DNA of 64,000 nt from Pleomorphomonas sp. PLEO (GTDB lineage: Bacteria > Pseudomonadota > Alphaproteobacteria > Rhizobiales > Pleomorphomonadaceae). The position numbers were made by a program, and so were the translations under genes. Below, in pieces: positions 41,648 to 60,930 of this stretch. Numbering within the stretch: position 1 is the stretch's first letter; each line of letters begins with the position of its first letter. The stretch lies in contig NZ_CP166625.1 of assembly GCF_041320595.1 (NCBI RefSeq), forward strand, positions 2,057,501 through 2,121,500, written 5' to 3'. The notes under the pieces are model-generated. The model saw only the letters and a list, made by a program, of their open reading frames with translations. It was not told the DNA's origin and ran no database searches.

Positions 41648-41657
41648 GGAGCGACAC

Positions 41658-42512
41658 ATGGCAAGGCCGCGTGGATCAAAGAACAAACCAAAGTCGGAGC
41701 CATCGACGGCTTCGACCAAGAAGCCAGAGCTGCGCGTGGTGGGCGGTGGTAATGCGGGAACGATCGGGGACAACTCCGACCAGCAGCTACGCGCTCTCAC
41801 CATGCACTACAAGACGCGCTACCTCGAGGCGCTTGCCAGGAAAAAGGAAGCCGATGCGGCGCTGAAGAACGCATGCAAGTCAATCAAGGCTGATCTCGGC
41901 GACACCGGGCTGAAGGACATCAAACTCCTGATCGAGATTGACAGCGCCGGAAACAACTCGATCGTCAAGCAGACTATTGAGCACCTGATGCGTTGCGCCG
42001 CATGGGCAGGTCTGCCCGTTGGGACGCAAGCCACGCTCTTTGATGATGACCGCAGGACCTTGCTCGAGAAGGCCGGAGAAGAAGGTGAGTACGCCGGTCT
42101 CAACGGGAAGAACCCGCAAAGCCCGCATCATCCCGGCAGCGAGCTTGACCAAGCCTGGATGGCCGCATGGTACAAGGGCCAGGACCAACTCAAGCAGGTC
42201 TTCCTCAAAAACAACGAGACGAAGATTCTGCGCCCCGTCGAAACGCAACAGCGCGCCGACGATGATGATGCTGATGCCGCTCTCGCCGCCGAGGCGGACG
42301 ACGGGGATGTTGGTCCTGAAGATGATCTCGACGATCAGGATACTGACGGTGCCCCGTTTGATCGCCCTGGCCGCGTCGTCAACGGCATCGAGATCGTCGG
42401 CGAGGAGCCGGCAGGCCTTGCGCCAGCCCCGGACATCAAGTGGCCCGATGGTGCCGGCAAAGATGCCGATCTCCGTCCTCGCCATCTGGCCCAGGATAAT
42501 TCGGAGCTCTGA
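41658..42512 (+). CDS. Hypothetical phage protein
   Basis: This is a 284-residue protein from ATG 41658 (TAAGGAG 8 nt upstream). The N-terminus is basic and Ser/Lys-rich ('ARPRGSKNKPKSEPS'), the middle helical ('YLEALARKKEADAALKNACKSI'), and the C-terminus very acidic ('DDDDADAALAAEADDGDVGPEDDLDD'). A replication- or recombination-associated role is possible from position only. Confidence 0.55.
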   Translation: MARPRGSKNKPKSEPSTASTKKPELRVVGGGNAGTIGDNSDQQLRALTMHYKTRYLEALARKKEADAALKNACKSIKADLGDTGLKDIKLLIEIDSAGNNSIVKQTIEHLMRCAAWAGLPVGTQATLFDDDRRTLLEKAGEEGEYAGLNGKNPQSPHHPGSELDQAWMAAWYKGQDQLKQVFLKNNETKILRPVETQQRADDDDADAALAAEADDGDVGPEDDLDDQDTDGAPFDRPGRVVNGIEIVGEEPAGLAPAPDIKWPDGAGKDADLRPRHLAQDNSEL

Positions 42513-44887: not shown

Positions 44888-45162
44888 TGGCCAAGGACCC
44901 TCGGGAAGGGCTCACCCCTACGGTTGTTCGCGCGTCTCTACTGCATTTGGTTAAGCAGCACAAAGACTTAACTCGGCACACGCCGGATGAGTGTTGGTTG
45001 CATATCAAGCCTGAAGACGCGGTTCGCCTCGCCGCCGCCGAGCGATGGCTGGAGGAAATGGAACTCCAGAATATCGAGCTCAAGCAGGAGATCTATGGCC
45101 TCCGTAAGCGCAACGAGAATCTGATCGAAGACATCAAGAAGTATGAGCGTGGGCAAAAATGA
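44887..45162 (+). CDS. Small coiled-coil phage protein
   Basis: This is a 91-residue protein. 'IKPEDAVRLAAAERWLEEMELQNIELKQEI' (in overlapping heptads) to the C-terminus is a coiled coil. It overlaps the primase start by 4 nt; possibly a primase or helicase partner. Confidence 0.5.
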   Translation: MAKDPREGLTPTVVRASLLHLVKQHKDLTRHTPDECWLHIKPEDAVRLAAAERWLEEMELQNIELKQEIYGLRKRNENLIEDIKKYERGQK

Positions 45163-46355
45163 GCAGGTATCGGGACGACAAGGCGGAAATTCAGAGGGGG
45201 CTTGAGCAGAACATTGAGGGGCTGCTCACGAGGTATTTCCCCGGCTGGATGACCAACCCGAACAAGACCAAGGCCCTGCTCACCCCGAAGCAAAAGGGAA
45301 AGATTATTTCCTCCAGCTTTCAAGTCGATCTCGTCGGCCAACATAAAGGACAGTGGTATCGCCACTCGCAACATAAAGGCGGCCATCTACTCGCCCTGAT
45401 TTTTTACGCGGAACGCAATGGTGACCTCCCGACAAGCAAGGCCGATTGGGCTGATGCATACGGCTATGCCCGGGAATTCCTCGGCATCCGATCGGACAGG
45501 CCAGAAGAGACCCCAGACGAGAAGGCTACCCGCGAGCGCAGGCAGCAAAAAGAGCGGGAAGACAGCGAGCGGAAGCAGGCAGCGGCTGCGAAGGAGAAGG
45601 CTCGGTATGACGCTTGGCGCTCGGGAACCGCATTGGACATCTTCGATAACTGCCTTCCCCTTCTTGGCAGCCATGGTGAATCCTATCTTGTCGTCGCGCG
45701 TGGGCTCCCCCCAGTCAGCGAGTGGCCATGGTCGCCTGTAAACGATATTCGCTTTCACCCATCGCTTGATTACGATCTCCAGCGCGAAGGCTTCGGCCGC
45801 CACCCCGCCGTTGTAATGGCGGTGCGCGATGCCTTTGGTGCCGTCATCGCGATCTGGAAGATCTATCTCGACCACGTGAAGCCTGACAAATCTGATGCTG
45901 TGCCAGAACCCAAGCTCGGCTTTGGACCGGCCGGCGGCGGCGCTGTCAGGATCGGCGGAGATGGGCCGCGCATCGGGGCCATTGAGGGCGTGGAGTCCGC
46001 GCTGTCGACTTGGGTGCTCCACGGCTTTGCCTATCCGATGTGGGCCATGCTCTCGACATCAGGAATAATCGGCTTCGACCCCCCCATCTTCGTCAACCGC
46101 ATCGACTATTTCCCCGACGGGGATCTTGGCCGATTTAAAAAAGGCGGCAAAGACAAGAATGCCGGCTCACAAGAAGCGAAGGCCTTTAATCAAAAGAAGG
46201 CCTATCCAGAAGACGTGGATGAACCGCCGGGATTGAAGGCCGCCAAGACTGGCGCAGCGCGTACCGGCGCCATGGGCATCAAGACCGTCATCAACGACCA
46301 GCCGATCCACGGCGACGGAAATACCATTCTCAAGGCATTGAAAGGATTGCTCTGA
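45159..46355 (+). CDS. Phage DNA primase with Toprim domain
   Basis: This is a 398-residue protein. The N-terminal half has a charged helix ('EKATRERRQQKEREDSERKQ'); no zinc finger is seen. The Toprim signature is 'IGAIEGVESALS' (Glu near residue 275) and 'DYFPDGDLG' (D-x-D near 316). It is followed in the operon by a DnaB-like helicase, forming the replication pair. It would lay RNA primers on phage DNA. The missing zinc finger is common in this alphaproteobacterial phage family. Confidence 0.75.
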   Translation: MSRYRDDKAEIQRGLEQNIEGLLTRYFPGWMTNPNKTKALLTPKQKGKIISSSFQVDLVGQHKGQWYRHSQHKGGHLLALIFYAERNGDLPTSKADWADAYGYAREFLGIRSDRPEETPDEKATRERRQQKEREDSERKQAAAAKEKARYDAWRSGTALDIFDNCLPLLGSHGESYLVVARGLPPVSEWPWSPVNDIRFHPSLDYDLQREGFGRHPAVVMAVRDAFGAVIAIWKIYLDHVKPDKSDAVPEPKLGFGPAGGGAVRIGGDGPRIGAIEGVESALSTWVLHGFAYPMWAMLSTSGIIGFDPPIFVNRIDYFPDGDLGRFKKGGKDKNAGSQEAKAFNQKKAYPEDVDEPPGLKAAKTGAARTGAMGIKTVINDQPIHGDGNTILKALKGLL

Positions 46356-46564: not shown

Positions 46565-48548
46565 ACTCATCATCGACAGCTTCGCCGGTGGTGGCGGCGC
46601 CTCGGAAGGCATCAAGATCGCGCTTGGCCGGGATCCGGACATCGCCGTCAACCACGACGCGGCGGCGCTCGCCATGCATCGCGTCAATCACCCCGGCACT
46701 CACCATCTTATTCAGGATGTGGCGGTGGTTGACGCCGTCGGTCTCTGCGATGGCCAGCCAATCGGCATGCTTTGGATGTCGCCGGACTGCACCGACCATT
46801 CCAAGGCCAAGGGCTCGGCGCCGCTGCGGGACGCCGACCGGACAACGCGCGGCATCGGATGGGCCATTGTCGGCTGGGTGAAAGCACTGCCGATGTGGCA
46901 GCGTCCGCGCGTCGTATTCCTGGAAAACGTCGAGGAATACGAGCAGTGGGGGCCGCTGCTGCCCAACGGCAAGCGCGACCCGGCGCGCAAGGGTGAAACC
47001 TTCAAGCAGTTCGTCGCCGCGTGGCGGGCGCTGGGATATAAAAACATCGAATGGCGTCAGCGGCGGGCATGGAAATCCGGCGCCGGCACGATCCGCAACC
47101 GTCTGTACATGATCATGCGCCGCGACGGCGAACCGATCGTCTGGCCGGAGCCCTCGCACGGCAACCCAAACGACCCGATCGACGCGGCGCGGATCGCGGC
47201 CGGCGAGTTGCGTGAATGGGTGACCGTCGCGGAAGGCCTAGACTTCAGCCTACCTTGCCCGTCGATCTTCGAGACGTCGGTAGAGATCAAGGCGAAGTAC
47301 GGCATTCGCGCCAAGCGGCCGCTCGCCGTCAACACCATGGCGCGCATTGCCAAGGGCGTGAAACGACGGGTGCTTGGCGTGCCCCGGCCGTTCATGGTGA
47401 AGGTCAGCCACAGCACCACGCGACGCGACGACGCCCGCGATCGGCCGATAGACGCACCCCTGTCGGCAATGACCGGCGTGCGAGACGATGCGATTGTCAC
47501 GCCCTTCATCACCAAGTTCCGCAGCAACTCCGTCGGTCATTCGATGGAGGAACCGCTGCACACTATCACGGCGCATTCAAGCGAGCACCACGGCGGCGGC
47601 GCTGCTCCGCTCGGCATGGTGGCGCCGCTGATCGCCTATGCGCAGCACGGCGGTAATGACCGGCCAGCCAATGCGCCGGGCCAAACCATCACGGCCAGCC
47701 CAAAGGACCAGCACCAACTGATCATGGCGCACATTGCGCGCCGGTTCGGTAACTCGGTGTCCAACGACGCTGGCGCGCCAAGCGGGACGCTGTTGGCCGG
47801 CGGCGATGGGAAGTCGCAGCTCGTTGCCACCTATATCGCGCAACAGAACGATGGGCCTCGCCAGGGCACCTGTTCGCGCCCCACCAGAGAGCCCCTGTCG
47901 ACGATCACCACCACCGGTTCGCAGCAGACCTTGGTTGCTGCGTCGATGATGACGCTACGTGGCTCCTCTCGCCGGGATAGCGGCGCTGATGAGCCCGCGC
48001 GCACTGGGTCGGCCAAAGGCAATCACGACGCCCTGATCGGCATGCCGCTGATGACGGTCTACTACGGCACTGACGATGACGGGGCCTCCGTTGATGAGCC
48101 AGGCCGCACGGAGACGGCCAAGCCCCGCTTCGGTCTTGCCGAGGTTCTGGCCGCCGCGCCGCCGTTCTCTCCCGAGCACTACACCCGGGCGCGTCAGGTC
48201 GCCGAGTTTCTGCGCTCACATGGCTGCTGGGATGGCGGCGAGTTCGTCACTCTCTTGGTGGAGGGCGTGACCTGCGTGCTGGTCGATATCGGCCTGCGCA
48301 TGTTAACCCCGCGCGAGCGCTTCAACGCTCAAGGTTTCCGGCGCGACTACATCATCGACCATGGCATCGACGATCTAGGCCACGTCATACGGTTTACCTT
48401 GGAGCAGCAGGGCTATATGTGCGGCAACAGCGTCTGCCCGCCGGAGGCTGCTGCGTTGGTCGCTGCGAATTTCCGACCGCGCGACGTCCAGGCTCCCCGC
48501 AAGTGGCAATCAGAAGATATGCCGCTCTTCCTGGAGGCCGCAGAATGA
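46557..48548 (+). CDS. C5-cytosine DNA methyltransferase with repeat-rich target region
   Basis: This is a 663-residue protein. Motif I is 'SFAGGGGASEGI' (8-19). The catalytic Cys78 lies in 'SPDCTDHSKAKG', a phage-type variant of the usual PPC loop. 'VVFLENVEEY' is motif VI, and the C-terminal 'CGNSVCPPEAAALVA' is motif X. Between residues about 296 and 525 are about seven degenerate repeats of pattern E/D-x-P-x-x-T-I-T-A in place of a normal target-recognition domain. It probably protects phage DNA from restriction. The start overlaps the preceding gene by 8 nt. Confidence 0.8.
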   Translation: MRELIIDSFAGGGGASEGIKIALGRDPDIAVNHDAAALAMHRVNHPGTHHLIQDVAVVDAVGLCDGQPIGMLWMSPDCTDHSKAKGSAPLRDADRTTRGIGWAIVGWVKALPMWQRPRVVFLENVEEYEQWGPLLPNGKRDPARKGETFKQFVAAWRALGYKNIEWRQRRAWKSGAGTIRNRLYMIMRRDGEPIVWPEPSHGNPNDPIDAARIAAGELREWVTVAEGLDFSLPCPSIFETSVEIKAKYGIRAKRPLAVNTMARIAKGVKRRVLGVPRPFMVKVSHSTTRRDDARDRPIDAPLSAMTGVRDDAIVTPFITKFRSNSVGHSMEEPLHTITAHSSEHHGGGAAPLGMVAPLIAYAQHGGNDRPANAPGQTITASPKDQHQLIMAHIARRFGNSVSNDAGAPSGTLLAGGDGKSQLVATYIAQQNDGPRQGTCSRPTREPLSTITTTGSQQTLVAASMMTLRGSSRRDSGADEPARTGSAKGNHDALIGMPLMTVYYGTDDDGASVDEPGRTETAKPRFGLAEVLAAAPPFSPEHYTRARQVAEFLRSHGCWDGGEFVTLLVEGVTCVLVDIGLRMLTPRERFNAQGFRRDYIIDHGIDDLGHVIRFTLEQQGYMCGNSVCPPEAAALVAANFRPRDVQAPRKWQSEDMPLFLEAAE

Positions 48549-49921
48549 ACGCGCCACATAACCCCCTTGCCCCATCCGCTACCGTAGAAAAGGCCGTCCT
48601 GGGCGCCTTGCTCCTCTCCGATAGCGCCTATTGGAGCGTGGAAAGCGTGCTCAAGCCGGAGCACTTCTCCTTCGCCATCCACTCCAAGATCTTCTCCGCC
48701 ATCAAGAAGCTTTGCGACGAAGGCAAGAAGGTTTCTTTGCAGAAGCTCGTGGCGCTGATCGGCGAGGAGTATGACGACGGCAAGAGCGTCATCATGCTGC
48801 TCGGCGCGCTCCTGAACGATGCGGAACGCAGCGAAGGCGGCGGGGTATGGCAGACCTTCGTTGAAGACATAATCGAGGGCTGGCGTAAGCGGCAGATCAA
48901 GGAGCAAGTCGAGTGGGCGACGAAGAGAGTCGTCGAGGCCGGCGTCAACTCCGACGATCTCATTACCGACCTGAAGGGGCGTCTTGAGGCGATCGAGGCC
49001 AATAGCCAAGCGCAACGTGTTCAATGGATAGGAGAGATCGCCGCCAAAGCAGCCCGATCTGGTAAAGCCGCACGCGATGGTGGAGTTGTTCCTGGATTTG
49101 ATACAGGGCTCTCCAGTCTGGATGAGGTGATCGGGCGAATACACCAAGGAGATTTTGGGGCAATTATCGCCCCCCAAGGCGACGGGAAGACAATACTTGC
49201 CGCCCAATTGGCGAAGCGCGCGGCGCTCTATGGCCCCGTGGCTTTCGATCAGCTTGATATGGGCAGCGACGATATGGTCCGCCGAGAGCTGGCTCAACAA
49301 AGTGACATGTCAGCGGAAGAGCTTGAGGAGGGTGCCTTCGACTTCTTCGCTGCCGAACGGCTAGACGCTGCCGTAAAGGCGATGGCCAATCTTCCAATAA
49401 TCATTGATGATCGTACCAACCAATCAATTGACCAGATTATCTCTCGCGCAAGATCGCTCAAACGTTCGCATGGTATCCATGCAATGTTCATCGACCATAT
49501 GCGAAAAGTTCAAGTGCGTGGAAAGATGCATGATCGGTTTGAAAAATACCCGATCATTACAGGCGGGTTGAAGGATGCTGGAAAAGATATAGGCGTGACT
49601 TTCGTTCTGCTTTCACAGGTTCTCCAGCAAGCTCAGCGTCGTGATAGCCCTGTTCTCCAGCTAACAGATGCAGAGGGCGGCGGTTCACTTCAACAGGATG
49701 CCGATTGGGTAATCGGCATGTGGCGCTGGGACCGCTGGTTGAAGACCCGAGAGCCAACCAACGGATCTGAAGCCGATTGGTCCAAGTGGAGGGAAAAATA
49801 CAACAGGCATAAAGGCCGGGTGGAAATGTGCGGATTGAAACGCCGGCGCGGGCAAGATGGCATTATCCGCGAGTTCGAATTCAACGGCCGTCTGAGCGTC
49901 ATCAGAGAAATCGAGAAGTGA
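48545..49921 (+). CDS. DnaB-type replicative helicase
   Basis: This is a 458-residue protein from ATG 48545 (overlaps the methylase stop). The N-terminal DnaB helical domain ('TVEKAVLGALLLSDSAYWSVESVL') leads to a RecA-like core with Walker A 'APQGDGKT' (about 208-215), 'MFIDHMRKV' (motif H2/Walker B region), 'VLLSQVLQQ' (H3) and 'LQQDADWVIGMWR' (H4). It unwinds DNA at the phage fork and pairs with the primase encoded just upstream. Confidence 0.85.
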   Translation: MNAPHNPLAPSATVEKAVLGALLLSDSAYWSVESVLKPEHFSFAIHSKIFSAIKKLCDEGKKVSLQKLVALIGEEYDDGKSVIMLLGALLNDAERSEGGGVWQTFVEDIIEGWRKRQIKEQVEWATKRVVEAGVNSDDLITDLKGRLEAIEANSQAQRVQWIGEIAAKAARSGKAARDGGVVPGFDTGLSSLDEVIGRIHQGDFGAIIAPQGDGKTILAAQLAKRAALYGPVAFDQLDMGSDDMVRRELAQQSDMSAEELEEGAFDFFAAERLDAAVKAMANLPIIIDDRTNQSIDQIISRARSLKRSHGIHAMFIDHMRKVQVRGKMHDRFEKYPIITGGLKDAGKDIGVTFVLLSQVLQQAQRRDSPVLQLTDAEGGGSLQQDADWVIGMWRWDRWLKTREPTNGSEADWSKWREKYNRHKGRVEMCGLKRRRGQDGIIREFEFNGRLSVIREIEK

Positions 49922-51134: not shown

Positions 51135-51623
51135 CTATAGCCGCCCGGTGTAGGCGTTGATGGCGTCCCCCACTGCTTCCTGGTCACCGCGCACGTTGTC
51201 TGGCAGCGTGGATAGGCGATAGTGGATCCACGCGCCGTAGACGGCAGGCTCAAGGAGATCCTGCAGGCGCAGAGAGTTGACGGCCTTAGCCATTGCCTTC
51301 GCCTCGGCCACGTTGCCGGCGGCGGCCATGCTCAGCAGCTCTTCCTTGGCCACGGCCCGAATAGCTTCCTCAGTGGCGTCGACGTCCTTCCGCGCCAGGT
51401 CAGAGGCCCGGCGGCGGATCCGGGCAAGCGTTTCAAACCGGCTCATCTCCGAAAAGATCTTATCGAGCGGCAGTCCTTCCGATCGCCGGCGGCTGATGAA
51501 CCCTTGGCGCAGGAAGGCTGCACGCTTGGCCGGGGAACGGGGCCAGCGCTTGGCGATCTCCCAACCTATGGCGGGGGCGAGGATGGCGCTAGCGGCGCCC
51601 AGAAGGATGATCTCAACCGACAT
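51135..51623 (-). CDS. Hypothetical membrane-anchored protein
   Basis: This is a 162-residue protein from ATG 51623. One N-terminal membrane helix ('VEIILLGAASAILAPAIGWEI') is followed by a long basic/helical cytoplasmic part ('ETLARIRRRASDLARKDVDATEEAIRAVAKEE', as a coiled coil). Its start overlaps the preceding gene by 11 nt. The function is unknown. Confidence 0.55.
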   Translation of the reverse strand: MSVEIILLGAASAILAPAIGWEIAKRWPRSPAKRAAFLRQGFISRRRSEGLPLDKIFSEMSRFETLARIRRRASDLARKDVDATEEAIRAVAKEELLSMAAAGNVAEAKAMAKAVNSLRLQDLLEPAVYGAWIHYRLSTLPDNVRGDQEAVGDAINAYTGRL

Positions 51624-52107
51624 CGTGGTTCTCCTCGTCGCGTGGATCCCGGGTATGTTCGCGGGCGATCTTCTTCGCCTTGTCGAGCAGCGATGGCGTC
51701 TTGAAAAGTTCCAGCGCCCACCAAACAGAGAACGGCGGTTCACGAGATCCGGAGAACATATCCAGGACTCGATCATGGCGGGAACCAAAGATCAGTGCGA
51801 AGTCGGCCGGGCCGATGCCAATCTCTCCGCAAAGCCTTGAGAGCTCGTTTCCTCCCATAAATTCCCTCTCAGCTTTCCATGAGCTGCGTTTCCGCGAGTT
51901 TAGTGCATCAAAAAGACAAGCTCTCGCAGCCTGAAGCGCCTCTTCCTCCGTTGGGAATATCTTCTCTGTAGCTCCGTCCATGATGTATCTAGGCTGCATT
52001 CCAGGAGCCGCCCATTGAGCAAACCATCCGACAGTTTCACGCAGGATGTTTTGATGGCGGATTGTATTTGCGACGTAGAACGTCGCGGGGGTCATAGGTT
52101 TTGGCAT
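51613..52107 (-). CDS. Hypothetical phage protein behind a repeated leader hairpin
   Basis: This is a 164-residue protein from ATG 52107 with AGGAGG 4 nt upstream. 'SRLCGEIGIGPADFALIFGSR' resembles a helix-turn-helix, and the N-terminal part carries 'YIMDGATEKIFPTEEEALQAARA', a short sequence seen in small alpha/beta phage proteins. The mRNA leader contains the CCCGCCC-ATGGGC hairpin (52122-52139). Confidence 0.55.
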   Translation of the reverse strand: MPKPMTPATFYVANTIRHQNILRETVGWFAQWAAPGMQPRYIMDGATEKIFPTEEEALQAARACLFDALNSRKRSSWKAEREFMGGNELSRLCGEIGIGPADFALIFGSRHDRVLDMFSGSREPPFSVWWALELFKTPSLLDKAKKIAREHTRDPRDEENHDVG

Positions 52108-52121
52108 GGATCCTCCTGCAT

Positions 52122-52139
52122 TGCCCATCACGGGCGGGG
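52122..52139 (-). promoter_or_regulatory. Repeated leader hairpin, copy 1
   Basis: On the - strand: CCCCGCCCGTGATGGGCA, 15 nt before the start of the gene at 52107, with the ribosome site directly after it. GCCC and GGGC pair. Confidence 0.55.
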
Positions 52140-52190
52140 CTGCACACGTGCAGCAAAATGAAATTCACCGGCTAGAGTCGTGGCCGTCAA

Positions 52191-52424
52191 TCACAACTGA
52201 ACGTCTGGGCAACTCCCAGCCTTGCTGCTGATTTTCGGGCGTCCGCCCTTACCCACGTAGATGCCGCACTCGTAGCCGTCCGGATCGCGGAGGATGGTAT
52301 CGCGGACGGTGTAGCCATCAGGCAATTCGACTTCAAAAAGCTCAGCGTGGCCATCTCGCTCGTTATTGCCGAGAGAGAAACGGGGGTCGACGTTGCCGGC
52401 GATATAGTGCTTGGTGATGTACAT
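52191..52424 (-). CDS. Small hypothetical protein of the small-gene cassette
   Basis: This is a 77-residue protein from ATG 52424 (AGAGGAAA upstream). 'ELFEVELPDGYTVRDTILRDPDGYECGIYVG' (as adjacent strands) points to a beta-rich fold. The function is unknown. Confidence 0.55.
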   Translation of the reverse strand: MYITKHYIAGNVDPRFSLGNNERDGHAELFEVELPDGYTVRDTILRDPDGYECGIYVGKGGRPKISSKAGSCPDVQL

Positions 52425-52560
52425 GGTGGTTTCCTCTTTGATGTGGTCTTGTTGATCGCTCGTCACCGGTTTCGCGGGCTGGCAGTGACGAGCATTCGTA
52501 GCCAAGAATATAAAGGATAAACGCCGGTCCTACAGCTCCGGCAATATCCCTTTCATCCAT
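52363..52560 (-). CDS. Possible small ORF with a hydrophobic segment (weak)
   Basis: A 65-codon frame begins 'DERDIAGAVGPAFILYILGYE' and overlaps the next gene by 62 nt. AGGAGG precedes ATG 52560 but only 3 nt away. It may instead be a leader peptide or an untranslated part of the 52425-52699 gap, which also holds the strong stem GCCCGGCCACCGCTT/AAGCGGCTCCGGGC (52639-52668). Confidence 0.25.
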   Translation of the reverse strand: MDERDIAGAVGPAFILYILGYECSSLPARETGDERSTRPHQRGNHHVHHQALYRRQRRPPFLSRQ

Positions 52561-52699
52561 ATTCCTCCTCATCCAGAGACCTTTCCGCCCGCGCTCTCCG
52601 CGCCCAAGGCGGGTAAGTCCTCGTCTATGCCCCCTTATGCCCGGCCACCGCTTGAAGCGGCTCCGGGCGCGGGCGATCAATCGCAAGAGGGCAAGTGGA

Positions 52700-53101
52700 T
52701 TAGGTGCAGAAGGGAGAGGCGAAGATCAGGTAATGCCGGCCGTCGATGATGGCGGTCTCGGCGTTGCCTTCCATGCCATGGGCGGTCCAAAGCCAGCCGA
52801 TGTCGTAGCCCTCGACGTCGGGCGACAAATCAACGATGCCGCCGAACTCGTCCCATGAAAGGACTTCGTCTTCTTGGGTCTCGCTGTCGTGGCTGGCGGG
52901 ACGAATGAGGCGGCATTCCAGGGCGACGACGTGCAGGCTAAGCCCGTTGATGGTCCAGATGCCCTTGAGCACGCATCGCGGGTTATTCTCGCCGCCGGCC
53001 TCGCGCCATACCGGCTCGACAACTTCGACGGTGGGGAACCCGGCGGGCGAGCTGATGGCCTGCTCAATGGCTGGGCCAGAAAGGATGGTGATTGCCGACA
53101 T
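52700..53101 (-). CDS. Small hypothetical protein of the small-gene cassette
   Basis: This is a 133-residue acidic, beta-rich protein ('AITILSGPAIEQAISSPAG', 'CVLKGIWTINGLSLHVVALECRL'). It is followed by a hairpin (52639-52668). No family is recognised. Confidence 0.55.
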   Translation of the reverse strand: MSAITILSGPAIEQAISSPAGFPTVEVVEPVWREAGGENNPRCVLKGIWTINGLSLHVVALECRLIRPASHDSETQEDEVLSWDEFGGIVDLSPDVEGYDIGWLWTAHGMEGNAETAIIDGRHYLIFASPFCT

Positions 53102-53106
53102 GGCTA

Positions 53107-53286
53107 TTACCTCTGCATCACTGATTTCACGATGAGACCGTTCCCTATCCCGTTGAAATCTTCAGTTGGGTTTTCTGACTGAGCCCACATTTCGCAGGCA
53201 TCCGCGCCGGCTTCATCACGGCTGACGGCTTCGACCTCGACCGTATAAGTTACGGTTTCTGTCAGGGTGATGGTGAATTTTGCCAT
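53107..53286 (-). CDS. Small protein, too short for routine gene calling
   Basis: This is a 59-residue protein. ATG 53286 follows GGAGGAATAAACC. It starts 'AKFTITLTETVTYTVEVEAV' and continues 'SRDEAGADACEMWAQ', a common small phage protein shape (beta strands then an Ala-rich helix). It fills the gap between two cassette genes exactly (5 bp and 3 bp). The function is unknown. Confidence 0.6.
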   Translation of the reverse strand: MAKFTITLTETVTYTVEVEAVSRDEAGADACEMWAQSENPTEDFNGIGNGLIVKSVMQR

Positions 53287-53289
53287 GGT

Positions 53290-53481
53290 TTATTCCTCCA
53301 TCAGTTGGAGTTCGCACCGGAGCGCATAAGGCGCCGGCATGGGGACGGCGTCGCCGTTGCGATCAACGATCACGCGAACGGCAGCAGGTGTTTCGAGGGC
53401 GGCGCCGCAATCTTCGGCGGATAGCCCATGGTCGACCACGTAGACATGGCCGGCGAGGATAAGGAGAAGTGCCCAGCTCAT
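53290..53481 (-). CDS. Small secreted or membrane-anchored protein
   Basis: This is a 63-residue protein from ATG 53481 (GGAGGTG 7 nt upstream). The hydrophobic N-terminus 'SWALLLILAGHVYVVDHGL' is signal- or anchor-like; two Cys follow. Its start overlaps the previous stop. Confidence 0.55.
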   Translation of the reverse strand: MSWALLLILAGHVYVVDHGLSAEDCGAALETPAAVRVIVDRNGDAVPMPAPYALRCELQLMEE

Positions 53482-53681
53482 GGCGTGACACCTCCTGACC
53501 TGGCGGCGGCGCGCGTGTGGTTGATGGCTGTCAGGATCAACCGGCGATGCGGTGCCGAGTGGCAGGCGTTGGCCCTGCCAAGGGCGTGCCGTAGCGCGTC
53601 CAAGGCGTTGGAGAGGTCGCGGCGCGCAAGGCAAGCGGCGGCGAGCGACAGGAACAGCCGGCAGGATTCCGCGGGCGTCAT
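53478..53681 (-). CDS. Small hypothetical protein of the small-gene cassette
   Basis: This is a 67-residue basic helical protein ('LFLSLAAACLARRDLSNALDALRHAL'), coupled to the next gene by ATGA. The Ala/Leu pattern resembles a single TPR-like helix pair. The function is unknown. Confidence 0.5.
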   Translation of the reverse strand: MTPAESCRLFLSLAAACLARRDLSNALDALRHALGRANACHSAPHRRLILTAINHTRAAARSGGVTP

Positions 53682-53686
53682 GGCTT

Positions 53687-54037
53687 TTACTCCGAACCGT
53701 TGATGCCGATTGCTTCCCCGTACGGGATGACTAGTGGGTCCTTGGCTAGGTCGACCTCGAGCTTTGCCAGCGCGTCCGCCAACTCTTGGCGTTCGTCTGG
53801 CAGCTCGCTTTCAATCCATTGGCGGTAGCTGATGGACGTTGAAGGGTCGGCGAGCGCTGTTTCGTGCTGGCTGATCGTGTCGGCAAGATCCTTGATCCGA
53901 CCGAAACCGTATTCTGCCGTCTTGGCAGTCCGCCGGATGGCGTCGCGGGCTTCGTTTACCGTTCGACCATGGGCTATAAGGCTGCCGGTGCCGTAGTTGG
54001 CGTTTATTTGGCAGTCGTTCCAATGGAAAAGAGGCAT
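53687..54037 (-). CDS. Small hypothetical protein of the small-gene cassette
   Basis: This is a 116-residue protein. The N-terminal 'LFHWNDCQINANYGTGSLIAHG' is beta-like, and the C-terminal half helical and acidic ('SELPDERQELADALAKLEVDLA'). It begins 4 nt after the previous stop. Confidence 0.55.
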   Translation of the reverse strand: MPLFHWNDCQINANYGTGSLIAHGRTVNEARDAIRRTAKTAEYGFGRIKDLADTISQHETALADPSTSISYRQWIESELPDERQELADALAKLEVDLAKDPLVIPYGEAIGINGSE

Positions 54038-54041
54038 GGCG

Positions 54042-54536
54042 TCACCGTGCCGCGTTGAGTTCGGCGGTGATCTTCTCGATCACGCTATCGGAGGCGACGC
54101 CCTGCCCGGTGCAGGTGCGAGCCCAGACGGTCAGCCCCGCAAAGTCCTTGTCGACCTTCTCGCCATGCTCGGCGAGGCGATCGGCGAGCCAATCGGACAC
54201 AATCCAATGCTCGAAAACTTCCCACTCGTGCGGCTCGATGTCGAATTCTTCGCAAAGTTCCTGCCAGCCGGAGCAAGCCCAGCTTTGGCCGTCGGTGGAG
54301 TCGCGAAACTGGCTGTTGGGCGGGAATTTGGTGGTGTCGGTGACGTCTTCCCACCCGGCTTCCGTGGCGGCTTCCTCGTAGTCGAGGATAGGGGAGACAA
54401 GCTCAACGGCGGCGTCCATCAACCCGCCTAGATCATCAGCACCGTGCGGATAGTCGCCACCGGCCAGCGTCGAAACCAGAAACGAAATGCAGTAGTGCAC
54501 TTCCCGGCGGACAAGGTCTTCAGCGGTGATGGTCAT
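54042..54536 (-). CDS. Hypothetical acidic protein behind a repeated leader hairpin
   Basis: This is a 164-residue, very acidic protein rich in Trp, Asp and Glu ('EEATEAGWEDVTDT', 'WACSGWQELCEEFDIEPHEWEVFEHWIV' in parts). The composition recalls DNA-mimic or anti-defence proteins, but this is only a hint. It is translated behind the leader hairpin at 54556-54571 with TGAGG as ribosome site. Confidence 0.6.
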   Translation of the reverse strand: MTITAEDLVRREVHYCISFLVSTLAGGDYPHGADDLGGLMDAAVELVSPILDYEEAATEAGWEDVTDTTKFPPNSQFRDSTDGQSWACSGWQELCEEFDIEPHEWEVFEHWIVSDWLADRLAEHGEKVDKDFAGLTVWARTCTGQGVASDSVIEKITAELNAAR

Positions 54537-54555
54537 GGTCTTCAGTCCTCAGAAT

Positions 54556-54571
54556 TGCCCAGATGGGCGGG
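54556..54571 (-). promoter_or_regulatory. Repeated leader hairpin, copy 2
   Basis: - strand CCCGCCCATCTGGGCA, then TGAGG, then the start codon at 54536. GCCC/GGGC stem. Confidence 0.6.
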
Positions 54572-54588
54572 TTTGAGCATTGGCGCTC

Positions 54589-54626
54589 GGGAAGGGCGCA
54601 CCGGCCGGAGCCGGCCGCCCTGCCGG
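54589..54626 (-). ncRNA. 38-nt structured element, copy 1
   Basis: On the - strand: an outer stem CGGCAGGGCG with CGCCCTTCCC, and an inner hairpin CCGGC/GCCGG. It directly follows the stop of the 68-residue gene and precedes leader hairpin copy 2. It shares layout with the copies at 55616 and 55970, with paired changes. Confidence 0.45.
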
Positions 54627-54630
54627 GGCG

Positions 54631-54837
54631 TCAGTGGCCGAACTCGACGAAGTGCTGGCGCACGGCCGACACTTGCTCGTCAAAGTCGATGCGCTCGGCG
54701 TCGCAGAATTCGATAAGCGACACGAGAAGGTGAAACAGGCCGATATCGGCCGACCCCTCATCATCGATGCGGGCTGCTTCGGTGTGCTGCGCGATGGCCT
54801 GCCGGCCAAGTTCAGCTAGCTCATTGTTGATCATCAT
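54631..54837 (-). CDS. Small hypothetical protein of the small-gene cassette
   Basis: This is a 68-residue acidic helical protein ('ELAELGRQAIAQHTEAARID', 'LVSLIEFCDAERIDFDEQV'). It starts at ATG 54837 or the next codon, after AAGGGGGAAG. An upstream GC-rich hairpin (TTGGCCGGC/GCCGGCC, about 54880-54902) follows the previous gene. Confidence 0.55.
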   Translation of the reverse strand: MMINNELAELGRQAIAQHTEAARIDDEGSADIGLFHLLVSLIEFCDAERIDFDEQVSAVRQHFVEFGH

Positions 54838-54907
54838 CTTCCCCCTTGGCAGCGCGTCGGACTCTCCGGCGTGCGGTGAAGGGGGCCGGCCGTAGCCGGC
54901 CAACCTG

Positions 54908-55330
54908 TTAGCGAATACATTCGAGGTGGCATGCGTCAGCCCAACTGGCGGCGGTGAACGTCTCGCCGTGGTCGCGCTTGTAGACCGCGCCGGGCGTGGG
55001 GCTGGACAGATCAGGCAGCCAGCCATATTCACGCGCCGTCTGTTCGGGGCTGAAGGCCTCGTCATCAGGGGCGGGCACTTCCTCGCATTCGTCGATCAGG
55101 TCTTTCTCGTAGATCTCGACGTAGCAATGAGCCGCGCCGTGTTCGTCCTGTAGTGCCTCAACCTTGGCCATCCAGTTGGATGTGTCGGCGTCCTGCGGCT
55201 TGTCGCTGTCGTCGAGCATGATATTAACGAGCTTGATTGCCTCATCTTCGGCCCGGTCAAACTTGGCGTAGACGTCCATAACGATGCCGGGGGTTGAGAA
55301 GTGCTCGGCGGTGAGAAGAAAGACTTTCAT
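54908..55330 (-). CDS. Hypothetical acidic protein of the small-gene cassette
   Basis: This is a 140-residue acidic protein ('KVFLLTAEHFSTPGIVMDVYAKFDRAEDEAIKLV' in two strands and a helix). The fold looks alpha/beta; many Asp/Glu in the C-terminal half. It starts 10 nt after the upstream stop, without a leader hairpin. Confidence 0.55.
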   Translation of the reverse strand: MKVFLLTAEHFSTPGIVMDVYAKFDRAEDEAIKLVNIMLDDSDKPQDADTSNWMAKVEALQDEHGAAHCYVEIYEKDLIDECEEVPAPDDEAFSPEQTAREYGWLPDLSSPTPGAVYKRDHGETFTAASWADACHLECIR

Positions 55331-55340
55331 GGCAGGTTCC

Positions 55341-55568
55341 TCAGTTCAAACGGGCGTTTGTGCGGGACCGGTAGACCTGAATGGCGGCATCCATCCACGC
55401 ATTGCGGGCGCTGGCGGTATCGGCGCCTAGGGTGTGGCCGTCTTCGGTCTGAATGAGAAACCCGCCCTGGAGCATGCCGCGAGCCGTGCGGACGGTAAGT
55501 CTCGCGTCCGGGTAGGTGGCTTGCACTTGGGTGCGGTAGGCGGCGGTTTCGTCGATGTAGTGCAACAT
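55341..55568 (-). CDS. Small hypothetical protein behind a repeated leader hairpin
   Basis: This is a 75-residue protein. 'ETAAYRTQVQATYPDARLTV', 'QTEDGHTLGADTASARNAWMDAAIQVY' (as adjacent motifs) is a small alpha/beta domain. The leader hairpin is at 55588-55604 with CGAGG as ribosome site. Confidence 0.55.
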   Translation of the reverse strand: MLHYIDETAAYRTQVQATYPDARLTVRTARGMLQGGFLIQTEDGHTLGADTASARNAWMDAAIQVYRSRTNARLN

Positions 55569-55587
55569 GGCCGGATGTCCTCGATAG

Positions 55588-55604
55588 TGCCCATGGCGGG
55601 CGGG
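55588..55604 (-). promoter_or_regulatory. Repeated leader hairpin, copy 3
   Basis: - strand CCCGCCCGCCATGGGCA, followed by CGAGG and the start at 55568. Confidence 0.6.
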
Positions 55605-55615
55605 ATTGACACTCA

Positions 55616-55653
55616 GGGAAGGCGCAGCGGCTAACAGCCGCCCGCCTTGCCGG
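55616..55653 (-). ncRNA. 38-nt structured element, copy 2
   Basis: - strand outer stem CGGCAAGGCG with CGCCTTCCC and inner hairpin GCGGCT/AGCCGC. Relative to copy 1, GGGCG/CGCCC has become AGGCG/CGCCT and the inner stem sequence is entirely different but still pairs. Confidence 0.45.
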
Positions 55654-55657
55654 AAGG

Positions 55658-55909
55658 TCAGGACGATTTGGGGAGTTTGCATTCGTCGTACAGCCAAGTG
55701 GGGCCGAACTCGTTACGCAGCCCGTGGAGCAGGGTTCCCATACCGGGGACGGGGCCGATCCAGATGCGGGCGTTGTACCAATAGATCATGCTCAATTCGT
55801 CGCGCCAGTTGTCACAGCCTCGCGAACGATCGGCCTTTCGCTTGTGCGCGGCTGCGAAGGCTTGCAGGGCGGCGACTTCGTCATCGGTTAGGTCGCGGTG
55901 CTTGGTCAT
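55658..55909 (-). CDS. Small hypothetical protein behind a repeated leader hairpin
   Basis: This is an 83-residue protein. 'LTDDEVAALQAFAAAHKRKADRSRG' helix, then 'IYWYNARIWIGPVPGMGTLLHGLRNEF' (in parts). The shape matches widespread small phage/plasmid proteins of unknown function. The leader hairpin is at 55928-55945 with GAGAGG. Confidence 0.6.
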   Translation of the reverse strand: MTKHRDLTDDEVAALQAFAAAHKRKADRSRGCDNWRDELSMIYWYNARIWIGPVPGMGTLLHGLRNEFGPTWLYDECKLPKSS

Positions 55910-55927
55910 GGTCGGTTCCTCTCAGAC

Positions 55928-55945
55928 TGCCCACGGCGGGCGGGG
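55928..55945 (-). promoter_or_regulatory. Repeated leader hairpin, copy 4
   Basis: - strand CCCCGCCCGCCGTGGGCA, then TGAGAGG and the start at 55909. Confidence 0.6.
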
Positions 55946-55969
55946 TATCGGGCCGGTATCTGGCACCTT

Positions 55970-56007
55970 GGGAAGGCTCACCACCCTTGCGGGAAGCCGC
56001 CTTGCCG
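55970..56007 (-). ncRNA. 38-nt structured element, copy 3
   Basis: - strand CGGCAAGGCGGCTTCCCGCAA begins the unit; the outer stem AAGGC/GCCTT is kept and the inner part can pair CCC/GGG. It lies between the 55-residue gene stop and leader hairpin copy 4. Confidence 0.4.
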
Positions 56008-56012
56008 AGTGG

Positions 56013-56180
56013 TCAGACGTAGGTGAGAAAGGCGCCCGTGGTCGCGCTATGCACTGCGACGCGATACCCGCCGCTCGCCGGCTCGTCGACGCGATAAACG
56101 CTGTTCTCGCAGCCCTCGTAATAGTCACGAAGGAATTTGATCCAAGCCTTGGTCGCAGCGAGCGGGGAGGTGAAGGTCAT
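56013..56180 (-). CDS. Small protein behind a repeated leader hairpin (too short for routine gene calling)
   Basis: This is a 55-residue protein. ATG 56180 lies behind leader hairpin copy 5 and the TGAGG site. 'TFTSPLAATKAWIKFLRDYYE', 'NSVYRVDEPASGGYRVAVHS' and 'TTGAFLTYV' form a compact beta-containing domain. The coding frame fits the gap between neighbouring cassette genes. The function is unknown. Confidence 0.6.
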   Translation of the reverse strand: MTFTSPLAATKAWIKFLRDYYEGCENSVYRVDEPASGGYRVAVHSATTGAFLTYV

Positions 56181-56199
56181 TGTCGCGGGCCTCAGTGCT

Positions 56200-56215
56200 T
56201 GCCCATCAGGGCGGG
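56200..56215 (-). promoter_or_regulatory. Repeated leader hairpin, copy 5
   Basis: - strand CCCGCCCTGATGGGCA, then TGAGG and the start at 56180. Behind it (56230-56265) lies a different GC hairpin (GCGGG/CCCGC) in the place of the 38-nt element. Confidence 0.6.
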
Positions 56216-56273
56216 TTGATCTGGCGTTCGAGGCAGCGGCAGCGGGATTGTTCCCGCCCCGCTAGCTGCAACG

Positions 56274-56456
56274 TCAGACGCGGGCGAGCGCTTCGGCCTG
56301 CCACGTGCCAGCGGCGAACGAGCCAAGCCACTTCATGGCAAAGGCGCGGCGATCGCCTTCCATCTCACGGGAGACCGCTGCGACATCGCCATAGGCTTCA
56401 GCAGCGATCAGGGCGGACGTGACGGCGCGGCGGGCAGACTGTGAAAGGTTGGACAT
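56274..56456 (-). CDS. Small helical protein, first gene of the small-gene cassette
   Basis: This is a 60-residue helical protein ('SNLSQSARRAVTSALIAAEAYG', 'REMEGDRRAFAMKWLGSFA'). Leader hairpin copy 6 precedes it, and a candidate repressor-controlled promoter lies about 65 bp upstream. The function is unknown. Confidence 0.58.
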   Translation of the reverse strand: MSNLSQSARRAVTSALIAAEAYGDVAAVSREMEGDRRAFAMKWLGSFAAGTWQAEALARV

Positions 56457-56474
56457 CTCGACATCCTCAATGGT

Positions 56475-56491
56475 TGCCCATGATGGGCGGG
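56475..56491 (-). promoter_or_regulatory. Repeated leader hairpin, copy 6
   Basis: - strand CCCGCCCATCATGGGCA with extra CCCGCC before it, then TTGAGG and the start at 56456. Confidence 0.6.
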
Positions 56492-56521
56492 GCGGGTGCC
56501 TCAACGGCTACCCATGACCTC

Positions 56522-56550
56522 GATATACGCCACGCCATTTTCGTTTTCAA
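56522..56550 (-). promoter_or_regulatory. Candidate promoter for the small-gene cassette
   Basis: - strand -35 TTGAAA (56545-56550), 17-nt spacer, -10 TATATC (56522-56527). The -35 lies inside the TTTTC-AAGAAT-GAAAA operator at 56544-56559, so the CI-like repressor should shut it in a lysogen. Confidence 0.5.
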
Positions 56551-58646: not shown

Positions 58647-59114
58647 ATGGGTGGTAAGGGGTCAGGTGGCCATAACCGGCTTAGCGACGCCGAGAAGATC
58701 GCCAAGGGCACGTTTAGGCCAAGCCGATCGGACGACGTCTACAAGGTCGAGGCTGCCGCCAAGGTGGTCACCGGCCCCTGGTTGTCATCCATACCGGAGC
58801 CAAACCTGCCGCTTGATGGGATCGCCCGGCAGAAATACGACGAGATCACCAAGACCCTCTTCGACCAGAACAAGCTGACGATGGCGACGGTGCTGACCGC
58901 CGAGCAATACGCTCTGCAGTACGGTCAGCAGTTCTCGCGCCTGACCGCCGGCAAGTCGGTTTCGGTATCCACCACGCTTATGCTGGAGAGGATGCTTCGG
59001 GACCTCCGGATCGCCGAGGAGGCGCCAGTCCTTGCCAGCCCGGGAGAAAGGTCGAACCGCTTCCGGCGCACCGGCTTCTCAATCCGCGCCGTTGCGTCAT
59101 CTCAGGAGGGATGA
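58647..59114 (+). CDS. Terminase small subunit
   Basis: This is a 155-residue protein from ATG 58647 (GAGG 6-7 nt upstream). 'MGGKGSGGHNRLSDAEKIAKGTFRPSR' (first residues, in parts) and 'PEPNLPLDGIARQKYDEITKTLFD' are the P27-type small terminase pattern: a flexible N-terminus, then a helical DNA-binding/oligomer domain. It recognises phage DNA for packaging. Its end overlaps the large subunit by 83 nt. Confidence 0.78.
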   Translation: MGGKGSGGHNRLSDAEKIAKGTFRPSRSDDVYKVEAAAKVVTGPWLSSIPEPNLPLDGIARQKYDEITKTLFDQNKLTMATVLTAEQYALQYGQQFSRLTAGKSVSVSTTLMLERMLRDLRIAEEAPVLASPGERSNRFRRTGFSIRAVASSQEG

Positions 59115-60930
59115 TTTCCGGTTCCCGCCGATCTATCTCGATGTGGATGGCGATGTCGAGGAGTTCACTGACTTCCCGGCCATAGCCAAGGCCTATGCAG
59201 AATCGGTCGTTGAGGGCCGCGAGCCGGCATGCCGCTACGTCAAGCTGGCGTGCAAGCGCTATCTGCGGATGCTCCGCAGGGCGGCCGATCCGAATGCGCC
59301 GTTCACCTTCTCGCCGGCGCATGCGGTCGACTTCCTGGACTTCTGGGAGAAGTGCCCGGTCGGCGACAACTGGCGGGGCGAAAACTACGTCGAGAAGGAG
59401 CCGTTTCAGGTCTTCATCGGCTGTTCGATTTATGGGTTCCGCCGCAAAGACCGCTGGCAATCTCGCTGGGTAAATTGGGTCTACCTGGAAATCCCTCGAA
59501 AGCACGATAAATCGGGGACTGCGGCGGTTATCGGGCTCTACGACGGCCTGTTCACGCTGTCGAAAGAGCCGAACATCATCATCGGCGCCGCGAGCGAGGA
59601 CCAGGCCAAGTACGTCTTCAACGCCGCGGCGCGCATCATCTCGGAAGAGACCGAACTCGCCGAGACGCACAAGATCGAGGTGACGCAGAAGATCATCCGG
59701 TTCGGCAAGAACCGGGGATTGATGCAGAAGCTCGCGACGATCCCCAAGAACCAGGATGGTTGGAACCCATCCACGATCATCCTTGACGAGCTGCACTCGC
59801 AAAACCCGGGCCTCTACCAGGTGCTCAAGTCCGCAATGGGCGCCCGGTCGAACCAGCTCATGTTCCAGATCACCACCGCAGGCCGGCAGGCCTGGGGGCT
59901 TGGCTGGGAGGAGCGAACCAATGCAATTCGGGTTCTGCAGGGCGAAAACGTTGATGATCGCATGTTCGCTCTCATCTTCACCGTCGATGACGAGGATCTG
60001 AAGGACGAGAAGCGGCTTCTCACCGATGAGGATATCTGGATCAAGGCGAACCCGATGTGGGGCGTCTCGATCGATCCGGACTCGGTCAGGAGTTTCGCGC
60101 AGAAGGCCCGGTTCTCGCCGGTCGACAGGGAAGAGTTCTTCCGGACGCGCCTCAATATCTGGAGCAACGCGGCAACCGGGCTGGTCGACCCGCAAGCATG
60201 GGCCGAATGCGCCGACCCGACCGTGACTTTGGAGACGATGGTCGGGCGGAAGTGTTGGATCGGCGTCGACCTTAGCCATTACCGGGACATGACGGCGATT
60301 GTCTTCCTGTTCGAGGAATTGGGCTATCAGACCCCGATATTCGGGCGGTTCTACCTGCCGGAGTCATCGCCTACGCTGCAGAGCCCCAATCTGCATGCGC
60401 TGATGATGGATTGGCACGATCGCGGCGAGCTGATCATCCAGCCGACAGGCAAGATCGATCTCGATGCGTTGCGGAGGGACATCCTCGTCTACTGCGAGGT
60501 CTTCGACGTCCAATCGATCGGTTACGACCATGCCGCCGGCGGATCGGAGCTGTTCAAGACGCTCTATGAGGACGACGGCATCGAGTACGTGTTCGATTTC
60601 CCGAACCGGCCAACCACGATGACGGTCCCCACTGAGGACCTGATGGCATCGATCGCCAGCAGGCAGTTGGTGCATGACGGTAGCGAGTGCCTGCGCTGGC
60701 ACATGCTCAACGCCGTCGGCGATATCAGGGCAAACGGAACGATCCTACCCAAGAAGGACGGCCCGAACAGCGAGCGCAAGATCGATGGCTTCGTGGCCGC
60801 GGTGATGGCGAACGCCATGCGCATGGGTGCCGAGGGCATCAAGGCGCGCAAGAAGTCCAAGGAAGTGGTCGACCCCTACCTCAAGCGGGGTCTGCTCGGT
60901 GCGGAGACTGTGAGCAATGGATCTCTCTGA
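59032..60930 (+). CDS. Terminase large subunit
   Basis: This 632-residue packaging ATPase/nuclease starts at TTG 59032 with GAGGAGG 9 nt upstream. The ATPase core has 'YLEIPRKHDKSGTAAVIGLYD' split as Walker A variant (PRKHDKS), 'IIGAASEDQAKYVF', and Walker B 'TIILDELHSQ'. The RNase H-like nuclease has 'WIGVDLSHYRDMTAIVFLF', a middle 'SIGYDHAAGG' and C-terminal 'KIDGFVAAVMAN'. This is the Terminase_1 (HK97-like) family. It is intact. Confidence 0.88.
   Translation: MPAREKGRTASGAPASQSAPLRHLRRDDFRFPPIYLDVDGDVEEFTDFPAIAKAYAESVVEGREPACRYVKLACKRYLRMLRRAADPNAPFTFSPAHAVDFLDFWEKCPVGDNWRGENYVEKEPFQVFIGCSIYGFRRKDRWQSRWVNWVYLEIPRKHDKSGTAAVIGLYDGLFTLSKEPNIIIGAASEDQAKYVFNAAARIISEETELAETHKIEVTQKIIRFGKNRGLMQKLATIPKNQDGWNPSTIILDELHSQNPGLYQVLKSAMGARSNQLMFQITTAGRQAWGLGWEERTNAIRVLQGENVDDRMFALIFTVDDEDLKDEKRLLTDEDIWIKANPMWGVSIDPDSVRSFAQKARFSPVDREEFFRTRLNIWSNAATGLVDPQAWAECADPTVTLETMVGRKCWIGVDLSHYRDMTAIVFLFEELGYQTPIFGRFYLPESSPTLQSPNLHALMMDWHDRGELIIQPTGKIDLDALRRDILVYCEVFDVQSIGYDHAAGGSELFKTLYEDDGIEYVFDFPNRPTTMTVPTEDLMASIASRQLVHDGSECLRWHMLNAVGDIRANGTILPKKDGPNSERKIDGFVAAVMANAMRMGAEGIKARKKSKEVVDPYLKRGLLGAETVSNGSL

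Follow-up and report, generated by a model that had tools for sequence, protein, structure and literature searches.

What role does a small inverted repeat play when it stands, almost unchanged, in front of six unrelated small genes of a single prophage? The question is raised by a stretch of 64,000 nucleotides (nt) from Pleomorphomonas sp. PLEO (Alphaproteobacteria; contig NZ_CP166625.1, positions 2,057,501 to 2,121,500), referred to below as the window, with positions counted from its first letter. An initial annotation had described CCCGCCC, 2-4 nt and TGGGCA ahead of a Shine-Dalgarno (SD) sequence and an ATG at six minus-strand genes, and had proposed that the repeat exerts a shared translational or transcriptional control over unrelated small proteins, or that it is a module by which phages exchange cassette genes. 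In our analysis, the repeat is probably, if by no means certainly, a start-associated RNA hairpin acting in the translation initiation of many unrelated phage genes. In related phages its stem changes by matched substitutions and its loop remains steady, which suggests a shared and undescribed signal for starting translation.

Six potential hairpins ahead of gene starts in the window

The pattern CCCGCCCN{1,6}TGGGC had six matches in the window, all of them on the minus strand, against a mean of 0.18 in dinucleotide shuffles, none of 100 of which reached six; the elements before the SD and ATG of the six genes were thus confirmed. They read CCCGCCC-N3/4-TGGGCA, so that the central part is indeed variable, with a length of 3-4 nt and never of 2. 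The host genome (5,476,363 bases) contained seven matches of the pattern with a final A, six being the window copies and the seventh, at 2218404-2218417, leaving room for a loop of 2 nt only. In 13 other genomes of the genus, the pattern followed by an SD was found once, in one genome.

Each copy can form a stem of 4 base pairs (bp) with a loop of 4-5 nt. The GCCC/GGGC stem, whose pairing had been described as maintained, is present and identical in all six copies; since it is invariant, it gives no evidence of pairing within the window. The loops are GTGAT, ATCT, GCCAT, GCCGT, TGAT and ATCAT. The stem is separated from the SD core by 5-6 nt in each of the six leaders, and the SD from the ATG by 9 to 15 nt. 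In RNA folding, the hairpin belonged to the minimum-energy structure of five of the six leaders, the exception being that of the gene starting at 55909, which prefers another fold. It must be noted that the gene starting at 55568 ends at 55341 (75 amino acids, aa) and is in frame with the open reading frame (ORF) 55341-55697. Two other candidates were rejected by eye: for an upstream ORF starting at the ATG that several loops contain, frames and stops differ among the six copies, and pairing of the loop with the start codon (CAT/ATG) is possible in only three of them.

Hairpin arrays in related phages

Relatives of the protein encoded at 54042-54536 were found in 24 viral loci and four genome loci. 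At the same place, the leader of this family carries GCCC/GGGC in the window, GCCA/TGGC in locus L148 (contig G016) and GCGCC/GGCGC in L140 (contig G014); most leaders shown for the other relatives lack such a hairpin. L140 has seven hairpin leaders, one of them with TGCC/GGCA, and a G.U closing pair, which fits RNA, is possible in six of the seven. Over the leaders listed, its array is identical letter for letter to that of a second IMG/VR contig, G015 (L141), and the two were counted once. Further copies in L148 have GTCA/TGAC and TCCA/TGGA stems, and another protein of the small-gene block led to L168 (G017), where the element takes the form CCCGCA-NNYA-TGC(G/A).

The CGCA-type pattern had matches in 24 viral contigs and formed arrays, mostly on one strand, in eight of them (G017, G023, whose array lies in L358, G025, G026, G027, G028, G031 and G033); no array was seen in the part scanned of the other 16. 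Arrays of the same anatomy are thus found in G014, G016, G017, G023, G025-G028, G031 and G033, with three copies in G018 (L149). Close kin among these records are G027 and G031 on the one hand and G026, G028 and G033 on the other. Their hosts are probably alphaproteobacteria, to judge from relatives in Rhizobium and Devosia.

The window-type pattern matched at least 120 stretches in IMG/VR, and the 80 listed had one match each, judged to be mostly chance, with no second array of the exact type among them. For the L140-type pattern, multiple matches occurred, among the 80 listed, only in the L140 and L141 contigs. The CGCA-type pattern gave scattered matches in 96 of 397 genomes of the order and in six of 385 genomes of the class, no array being seen in either set, nor was any seen in the terminase relatives G019 and G020. 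Among named phages and plasmids no close record was found near the arrays; H88, on a Rhizobium lusitanum plasmid, has no annotation at that place.

Pairing and covariation of the stem

Pairing was examined in the relatives, at sites selected by loop and flank with [CT]C-NNN-A-NN-Y-A-T-NNN, which leaves the stem free except for an A-T closing pair. In the eight records with CGCA-type arrays, the arms were complementary in 73 of 88 leader sites and in 75 of 646 sites elsewhere. Restricted to six records, the figures were 59 of 68 (41 GC/GC and 18 others) against 55 of 489 (Fisher p 8e-38), and the excess persisted without GC/GC (p 1.7e-11). The two records left out of this test, G028 and G033, which are close relatives of G026 and whose arrays had already been viewed before their own pairing test, gave 14 of 20 against 20 of 157. 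Two controls were included: 238 viral loci from the scans with the window-type and L140-type patterns, after removal of two loci of the L140 and L141 contigs, had paired arms in 4 of 46 leader sites and 174 of 1,900 others, and 21 relatives without arrays in 0 of 10 and 26 of 320, respectively.

Among 68 unique leaders, of which 14 were unpaired, both sides were changed in 48 cells, against 18.6 after shuffling. Their covariation score was 0.370, against 0.091 in shuffled alignments, none of 500 of which reached it; sliding the partners gave 0.081 or less. In the CGCA-type relatives, compensatory change of the stem therefore exceeds both the shuffled and the slid controls, which argues at the sequence level for an RNA hairpin.

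The paired leaders of the eight records precede 73 genes of 41 protein families, 27 of which have a single member. In one family (177-191 aa), every one of the eight records contributes a member with a paired leader, whose stem is GGCA/TGCC, CGCA/TGCG or GCCA/TGGC; since these orthologous leaders differ in their stems, pairing has been kept through change at the same place and not only between copies. Unpaired leaders were left out before the gene-family counts, as well as before those of loops, spacing and the covariance model, and repeated sequences were removed before the covariation, spacing and both loop counts.

Loop sequence and distance to the Shine-Dalgarno sequence

The loop was ANYA in 45 of 54 unique paired leaders, a figure in which Y and the last A had been selected for and the first A had not. 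When hairpins were selected by a 4-bp stem and a 4-nt loop alone, ANYA was present in 48 of 227 leader hairpins and in 167 of 5,526 others. In 42 of 61 leaders of relatives, 5-6 nt separated the end of the hairpin from the SD core, and this distance was uncorrelated with that from the SD to the ATG (r 0.02). A conserved loop on a changing stem beside the SD is the pattern expected if a protein recognised the hairpin at the 30S subunit, and is unlike that of a DNA operator read through its arms.

A putative signal for translation initiation

Shared control of unrelated small proteins by a leader hairpin, one of the options initially put forward, stands as the best reading, given the stem covariation, the number of genes and families involved and the narrow SD spacing. 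Starting from what is observed, namely the location, repetition and SD spacing of the element and the covarying stem and conserved loop in the relatives, we infer action at translation. The mRNA leader would fold into a hairpin with a stem of 3-5 bp and a small loop, mostly ending 5-6 nt before the SD core, which several related phages would repeat before many unrelated genes. A trans-acting factor, probably encoded by the phage, would recognise the shape and the loop, would sit next to the SD/anti-SD duplex on the 30S subunit and would raise or gate the initiation of the whole gene set. Control is more likely to be exerted at translation than at transcription, for which no direct support was obtained: the region 51500-57300 has no sigma-70-like site, other promoter types lying outside the scan.

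Given the strong case for an RNA hairpin in the relatives, the measured SD distance and two named candidate proteins, the question can be tested with a plain reporter. Should the hairpin be read at the ribosome by a phage protein, a DNA phage would have in it a general means of tagging its own mRNAs, and it would also be a small portable translation switch.

Several observations weigh against this reading and must be considered. Two of the five covariation measures were unexceptional, these being double-change pairs (3 against 2.6) and pair types (10, reached by 47 of 500 shuffles), few pairs being available for either count, and the way sites were selected had itself imposed the A-U closing pair. 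Since the arrayed records are related, their sites are not independent and the counts overstate the number of independent events. None of the window's loops is ANYA, and its whole-leader folding energies are ordinary (z -0.14 to 1.07). The spread of the hairpin-SD distance (standard deviation 1.76) is not tighter than that of the SD-ATG distance (1.50), and in the seven leaders of G014 the former is 6-11 nt. Only 54 of 204 gene starts in the blocks carry a hairpin, as counted with a rough gene caller that missed some leaders. Finally, a covariance model was built from 61 leaders of relatives; it failed to retrieve the six of the window, of which only 56464-56491 was returned (E 2.6, rank 8).

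The covariance-model check suggested in the initial annotation had a mixed outcome: the model of the relatives misses the six leaders from which the question arose. The same model gave matches at E 0.0029, 0.053 and 0.35 in G016, a contig that also encodes a relative of the window's terminase, and in G014 it found none of the leaders. The window and G014 carry variants, and what ties these to the other arrays is anatomy, the leader of the 54042-54536 family and a set of shared genes, not one profile.

By upstream gap, again with the rough gene caller, a hairpin was present at 32 of 100 starts with a gap of at least 40 nt, at 8 of 23 with 16-39 nt and at 14 of 81 with 15 nt or less. A link of the hairpin to uncoupled genes was dropped, as the gene calling is too coarse to be used for it.

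Comparison with known elements

The start-associated sequences (SAS) of cluster K mycobacteriophages are described as a 13-bp sequence that includes the SD and has the consensus GGGATAGGAGCCC (PMC3203893, PMC12699233), and start-associated sequences are also reported in Microbacterium cluster EF phages (PMC7302621). The extended start-associated sequences (ESAS) are a pair of 17-bp imperfect inverted repeats with a variable spacer, whose departures, according to their describers, do not generally support RNA pairing, DNA-binding proteins being preferred as readers (PMC3203893). Like SAS and ESAS as presented there, the repeats studied here are short, stand at the starts of many unrelated genes of one phage, mostly in one orientation, differ between phage groups and are rare in the host; a role in translation initiation has been proposed for SAS and ESAS. 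Unlike them, the present element is a stem of 3-5 bp before an ordinary SD, its departures support pairing, its sequences are others and the hosts differ as far as known.

With up to two mismatches, the SAS consensus was found twice in the window (2.04 expected), at none of the six leaders, and not at all in L358. From ESAS the element is set apart by its short stem, its loop of about 4-6 nt and the support for pairing in the relatives. It resembles SAS and ESAS and, by its sequence features, is not a member of either, being a start-associated phage repeat with strong evidence for an RNA hairpin. In actinobacteriophages, such repeats have been on record since 2011 with no mechanism attached to them, and for the extended ones their describers found little support for RNA pairing; the present set lies in other phages, probably of alphaproteobacteria. 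No description of this hairpin was found in the open PMC library.

No Rfam family matched in the window. Three matches were obtained in L292, L294, L298 and L358, two to C4 and one to isrK, and no listed start hairpin was among the sites matched. The C4 antisense RNAs lie at 10721-10888 of L294 (G016; 72 bits), with isrK beside it, and at 4460-4543 of L292 (G014; 49.9 bits), and we take them to be P1/P4-like immunity RNAs of these two arrayed phages.

The coat-protein translational operator of R17/MS2 is an RNA hairpin at a gene start with the consensus loop ANYA and a variable stem. The element is likewise a small hairpin at a gene start, with an ANYA tetraloop in the relatives and a variable stem, a likeness to be taken only as a lead; unlike the operator, it has no bulged A, its stem is shorter, the start codon lies outside the hairpin and the window loops depart from ANYA. 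The promoter-stem-loop cassettes (PeSLs) of T4-type phages combine an early promoter with a stem-loop (Arbiol 2010 and Comeau 2014, cited in PMC4503421). The hairpins resemble them in being repeated intergenic stem-loops between small phage genes and differ in that no sigma-70-like site was found in 51500-57300 and the conserved part stands at the SD.

Candidate reader proteins

An all-against-all comparison of the proteins of ten records, namely nine contigs and the prophage segment, gave three groups with members in nine records, G018 being the exception: a DnaB-like helicase, a DUF7146 primase and a protein carrying a domain of ribosome modulation factor (RMF). The latter and a protein with an XRE-type helix-turn-helix (HTH; Table 1) are candidate readers, which co-occur with the arrays in a manner not separable from shared ancestry.

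The RMF match (PF04957) of the window protein scored 21.0 bits, under the curated cut-off of 27.9; the relatives in G014 and G016 were over it (31.4 and 31.3 bits) and seven of the nine below. A profile of eight RMF-fusion relatives matched the RMF chains 4v8g and 6h4n at E 5e-4, and RMF chains took ranks 1, 2, 3 and 5 in a fold search with a model of the protein (prob 0.90-1.00, E 0.37-1.9). Nine of the ten records encode a part that matches RMF in sequence and fold, with the difference that the domain is here fused to an N-terminal helical part. In the window protein (41439-42509), which has relatives in eight of the nine other records, the RMF-like part follows a long N-terminal helix, and phage RMF fusions may merit a study of their own. 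RMF binds near the 3' end of 16S rRNA, upstream of the anti-SD (PMC6177447), which is about where the start hairpin would lie.

The RMF domain (E up to 1e-4) was present in 10 of 11 arrayed virus records and in two of 39 others. For DUF7146 (E up to 1e-3) the figures were the same, one of the two being weak, and the association of RMF with the arrays can therefore not be told apart from common ancestry. The idea that RMF is the specific partner was set aside, since DUF7146 co-occurs alike. G810 has an RMF fusion and no array seen. In G020, also without a visible array, DUF7146 is present with a weak RMF match only (E 0.0145). It is improbable, in our estimation, that the RMF fusion docks at the 16S 3' end and reads the start hairpin, so that modified ribosomes would favour hairpin-tagged phage mRNAs over those of the host; RMF normally blocks the SD/anti-SD duplex. 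If this were true, phage-modified ribosomes would find in the hairpin an address tag on the mRNA.

The HTH of the XRE-type protein had a match at E 2.5e-4 to 3cec, a putative antidote protein, and weak matches to HigA antitoxins, and a fold search with this protein gave nothing at E up to 0.001. A peptide-pattern search for its relatives in viral contigs found none; the all-against-all comparison did detect them.

Prophage context and post-stop hairpins

The region is a prophage, as judged from its terminase large subunit gene. The minus-strand block of small genes lies between replication genes (45-50 kb) and the terminase, portal and head genes, which start at 59032 on the plus strand. A phage cytosine DNA methyltransferase gene (46449-48548, plus strand) adjoins those of the helicase and the primase. 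A PHROGs scan of 12 block proteins gave three matches, all to families of unknown function; a Pfam scan of 10 block proteins gave no match, nor did the shortened form of the 55341-55568 protein in the family scan.

Five gaps of the window were folded from the stop codon onward, and four of them contain a hairpin with a stability above that of shuffles (Table 1). By eye, two gaps of Rhizobium phage RHph_N65 (L136) have a post-stop hairpin like that at 55606-55660 and no start hairpin. In 51500-57300 there were four terminator-like sites against 5.0 expected, and the window's post-stop hairpins are not among them.

Table 1. Positions of the start hairpins, post-stop hairpins and selected genes in the window.
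Feature	Positions	Strand	Details
Start hairpin 1	56475..56491 (pattern match 56476-56491)	-	CCCGCCC-ATCA-TGGGCA; before gene 56274-56456, start 56456, 60 aa
Start hairpin 2	56200..56215 (pattern match 56201-56215)	-	CCCGCCC-TGA-TGGGCA; before gene 56013-56180, 55 aa
Start hairpin 3	55928..55944 (pattern match 55929-55944)	-	CCCGCCC-GCCG-TGGGCA; before gene 55658-55909, 83 aa
Start hairpin 4	55588..55604 (pattern match 55589-55604)	-	CCCGCCC-GCCA-TGGGCA; before gene 55341-55568, 75 aa
Start hairpin 5	54556..54571 (pattern match 54557-54571)	-	CCCGCCC-ATC-TGGGCA; before gene 54042-54536, 164 aa, phrog_26364-like
Start hairpin 6	52122..52138 (pattern match 52123-52138)	-	CCCGCCC-GTGA-TGGGCA; before gene 51613-52107, 164 aa, C-terminal XRE-type HTH
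Post-stop hairpin before start hairpin 2	56217..56276	-	-28.6 kcal/mol, z -3.01
Post-stop stretch before start hairpin 3	55946..56015	-	z -0.31, stability not above that of shuffles
Post-stop hairpin before start hairpin 4	55606..55660	-	TGAC at stop codon to GTCA; -31.0 kcal/mol, z -4.16
Post-stop hairpin before start hairpin 5	54573..54633	-	z -1.96
Post-stop hairpin, next gene without start hairpin	54850..54910	-	z -2.09
RMF-domain protein, candidate partner at 16S rRNA 3' end	41439..42509	+	RMF part = frame residues 205-249
Primase-like protein (DUF7146)	45159..46355	+	common to 8 of 9 other records compared
DnaB-like replicative helicase	48419..49921	+	common to 8 of 9 other records compared
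XRE-type HTH protein, 164 aa, candidate regulator	51613..52107	-	in 8 of 10 records (7 of 9 others); behind hairpin 52122
Terminase large subunit	59032..60930	+	relative in L148 contig (G016), 35% identity

Alternative explanations

A passive insulator is unlikely. A small GC-rich hairpin would keep the SD single-stranded and shield it from the post-stop hairpins upstream, no trans-acting factor being involved. The stems covary as pure structure would, three of the four folded gaps leading to a start hairpin contain a strong post-stop hairpin (z -4.16, -3.01 and -1.96, the fourth being at -0.31) and the window's own loops are not ANYA. However, an insulator needs no loop sequence, and the ANYA loop prevails in the CGCA-type phages and is enriched under stem-only selection.

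We consider it doubtful that the element is a double-stranded DNA site of the operator or stoperator kind, its half-sites being bound by a phage repressor such as the XRE-type protein of the gene 51613-52107. The repeats are inverted and stand at gene starts, eight of the ten records share an HTH protein, and the stoperators of cluster A phages are 13-bp repeats acting on transcription (PMC3203893). However, the arms change by matched double substitutions and the centre is kept, which is the opposite of a site read through its arms; in the window the centre varies in length by one base, and the elements share the direction of the gene, most of them at a narrow distance to the SD.

There is likewise little likelihood that the hairpins serve mRNA processing or protection, with a polycistronic message cut in the gaps and decay slowed by a start hairpin at the 5' end and a post-stop hairpin at the 3' end. 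Several window gaps do consist of a post-stop hairpin followed by a start hairpin, and the two RHph_N65 gaps have a similar post-stop hairpin; however, the latter lack the start hairpin, and 5' protection does not need a narrow SD spacing.

Cassette exchange between phages, with leader and post-stop hairpins as shared ends as proposed for PeSLs, is very improbable, because, in spite of the 27 single-member families behind paired leaders and the resemblance by eye of post-stop hairpins in the window and RHph_N65, leader identity extends over only about 13-16 bases, the stem diverges between orthologues, no sigma-70-like promoter was found in the region and neither an exchange event nor a gene swapped between conserved leaders was seen.

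Besides its post-stop hairpins, RHph_N65 has an unstructured sequence before gene starts, ACCGACA(A/C)GGA followed by ATG. Absent from G804 and G805, and with no match for the reversed control pattern, this sequence was found twice in RHph_N65 (L136, 7030-7740), twice in G802 and once each in G801 and G803.

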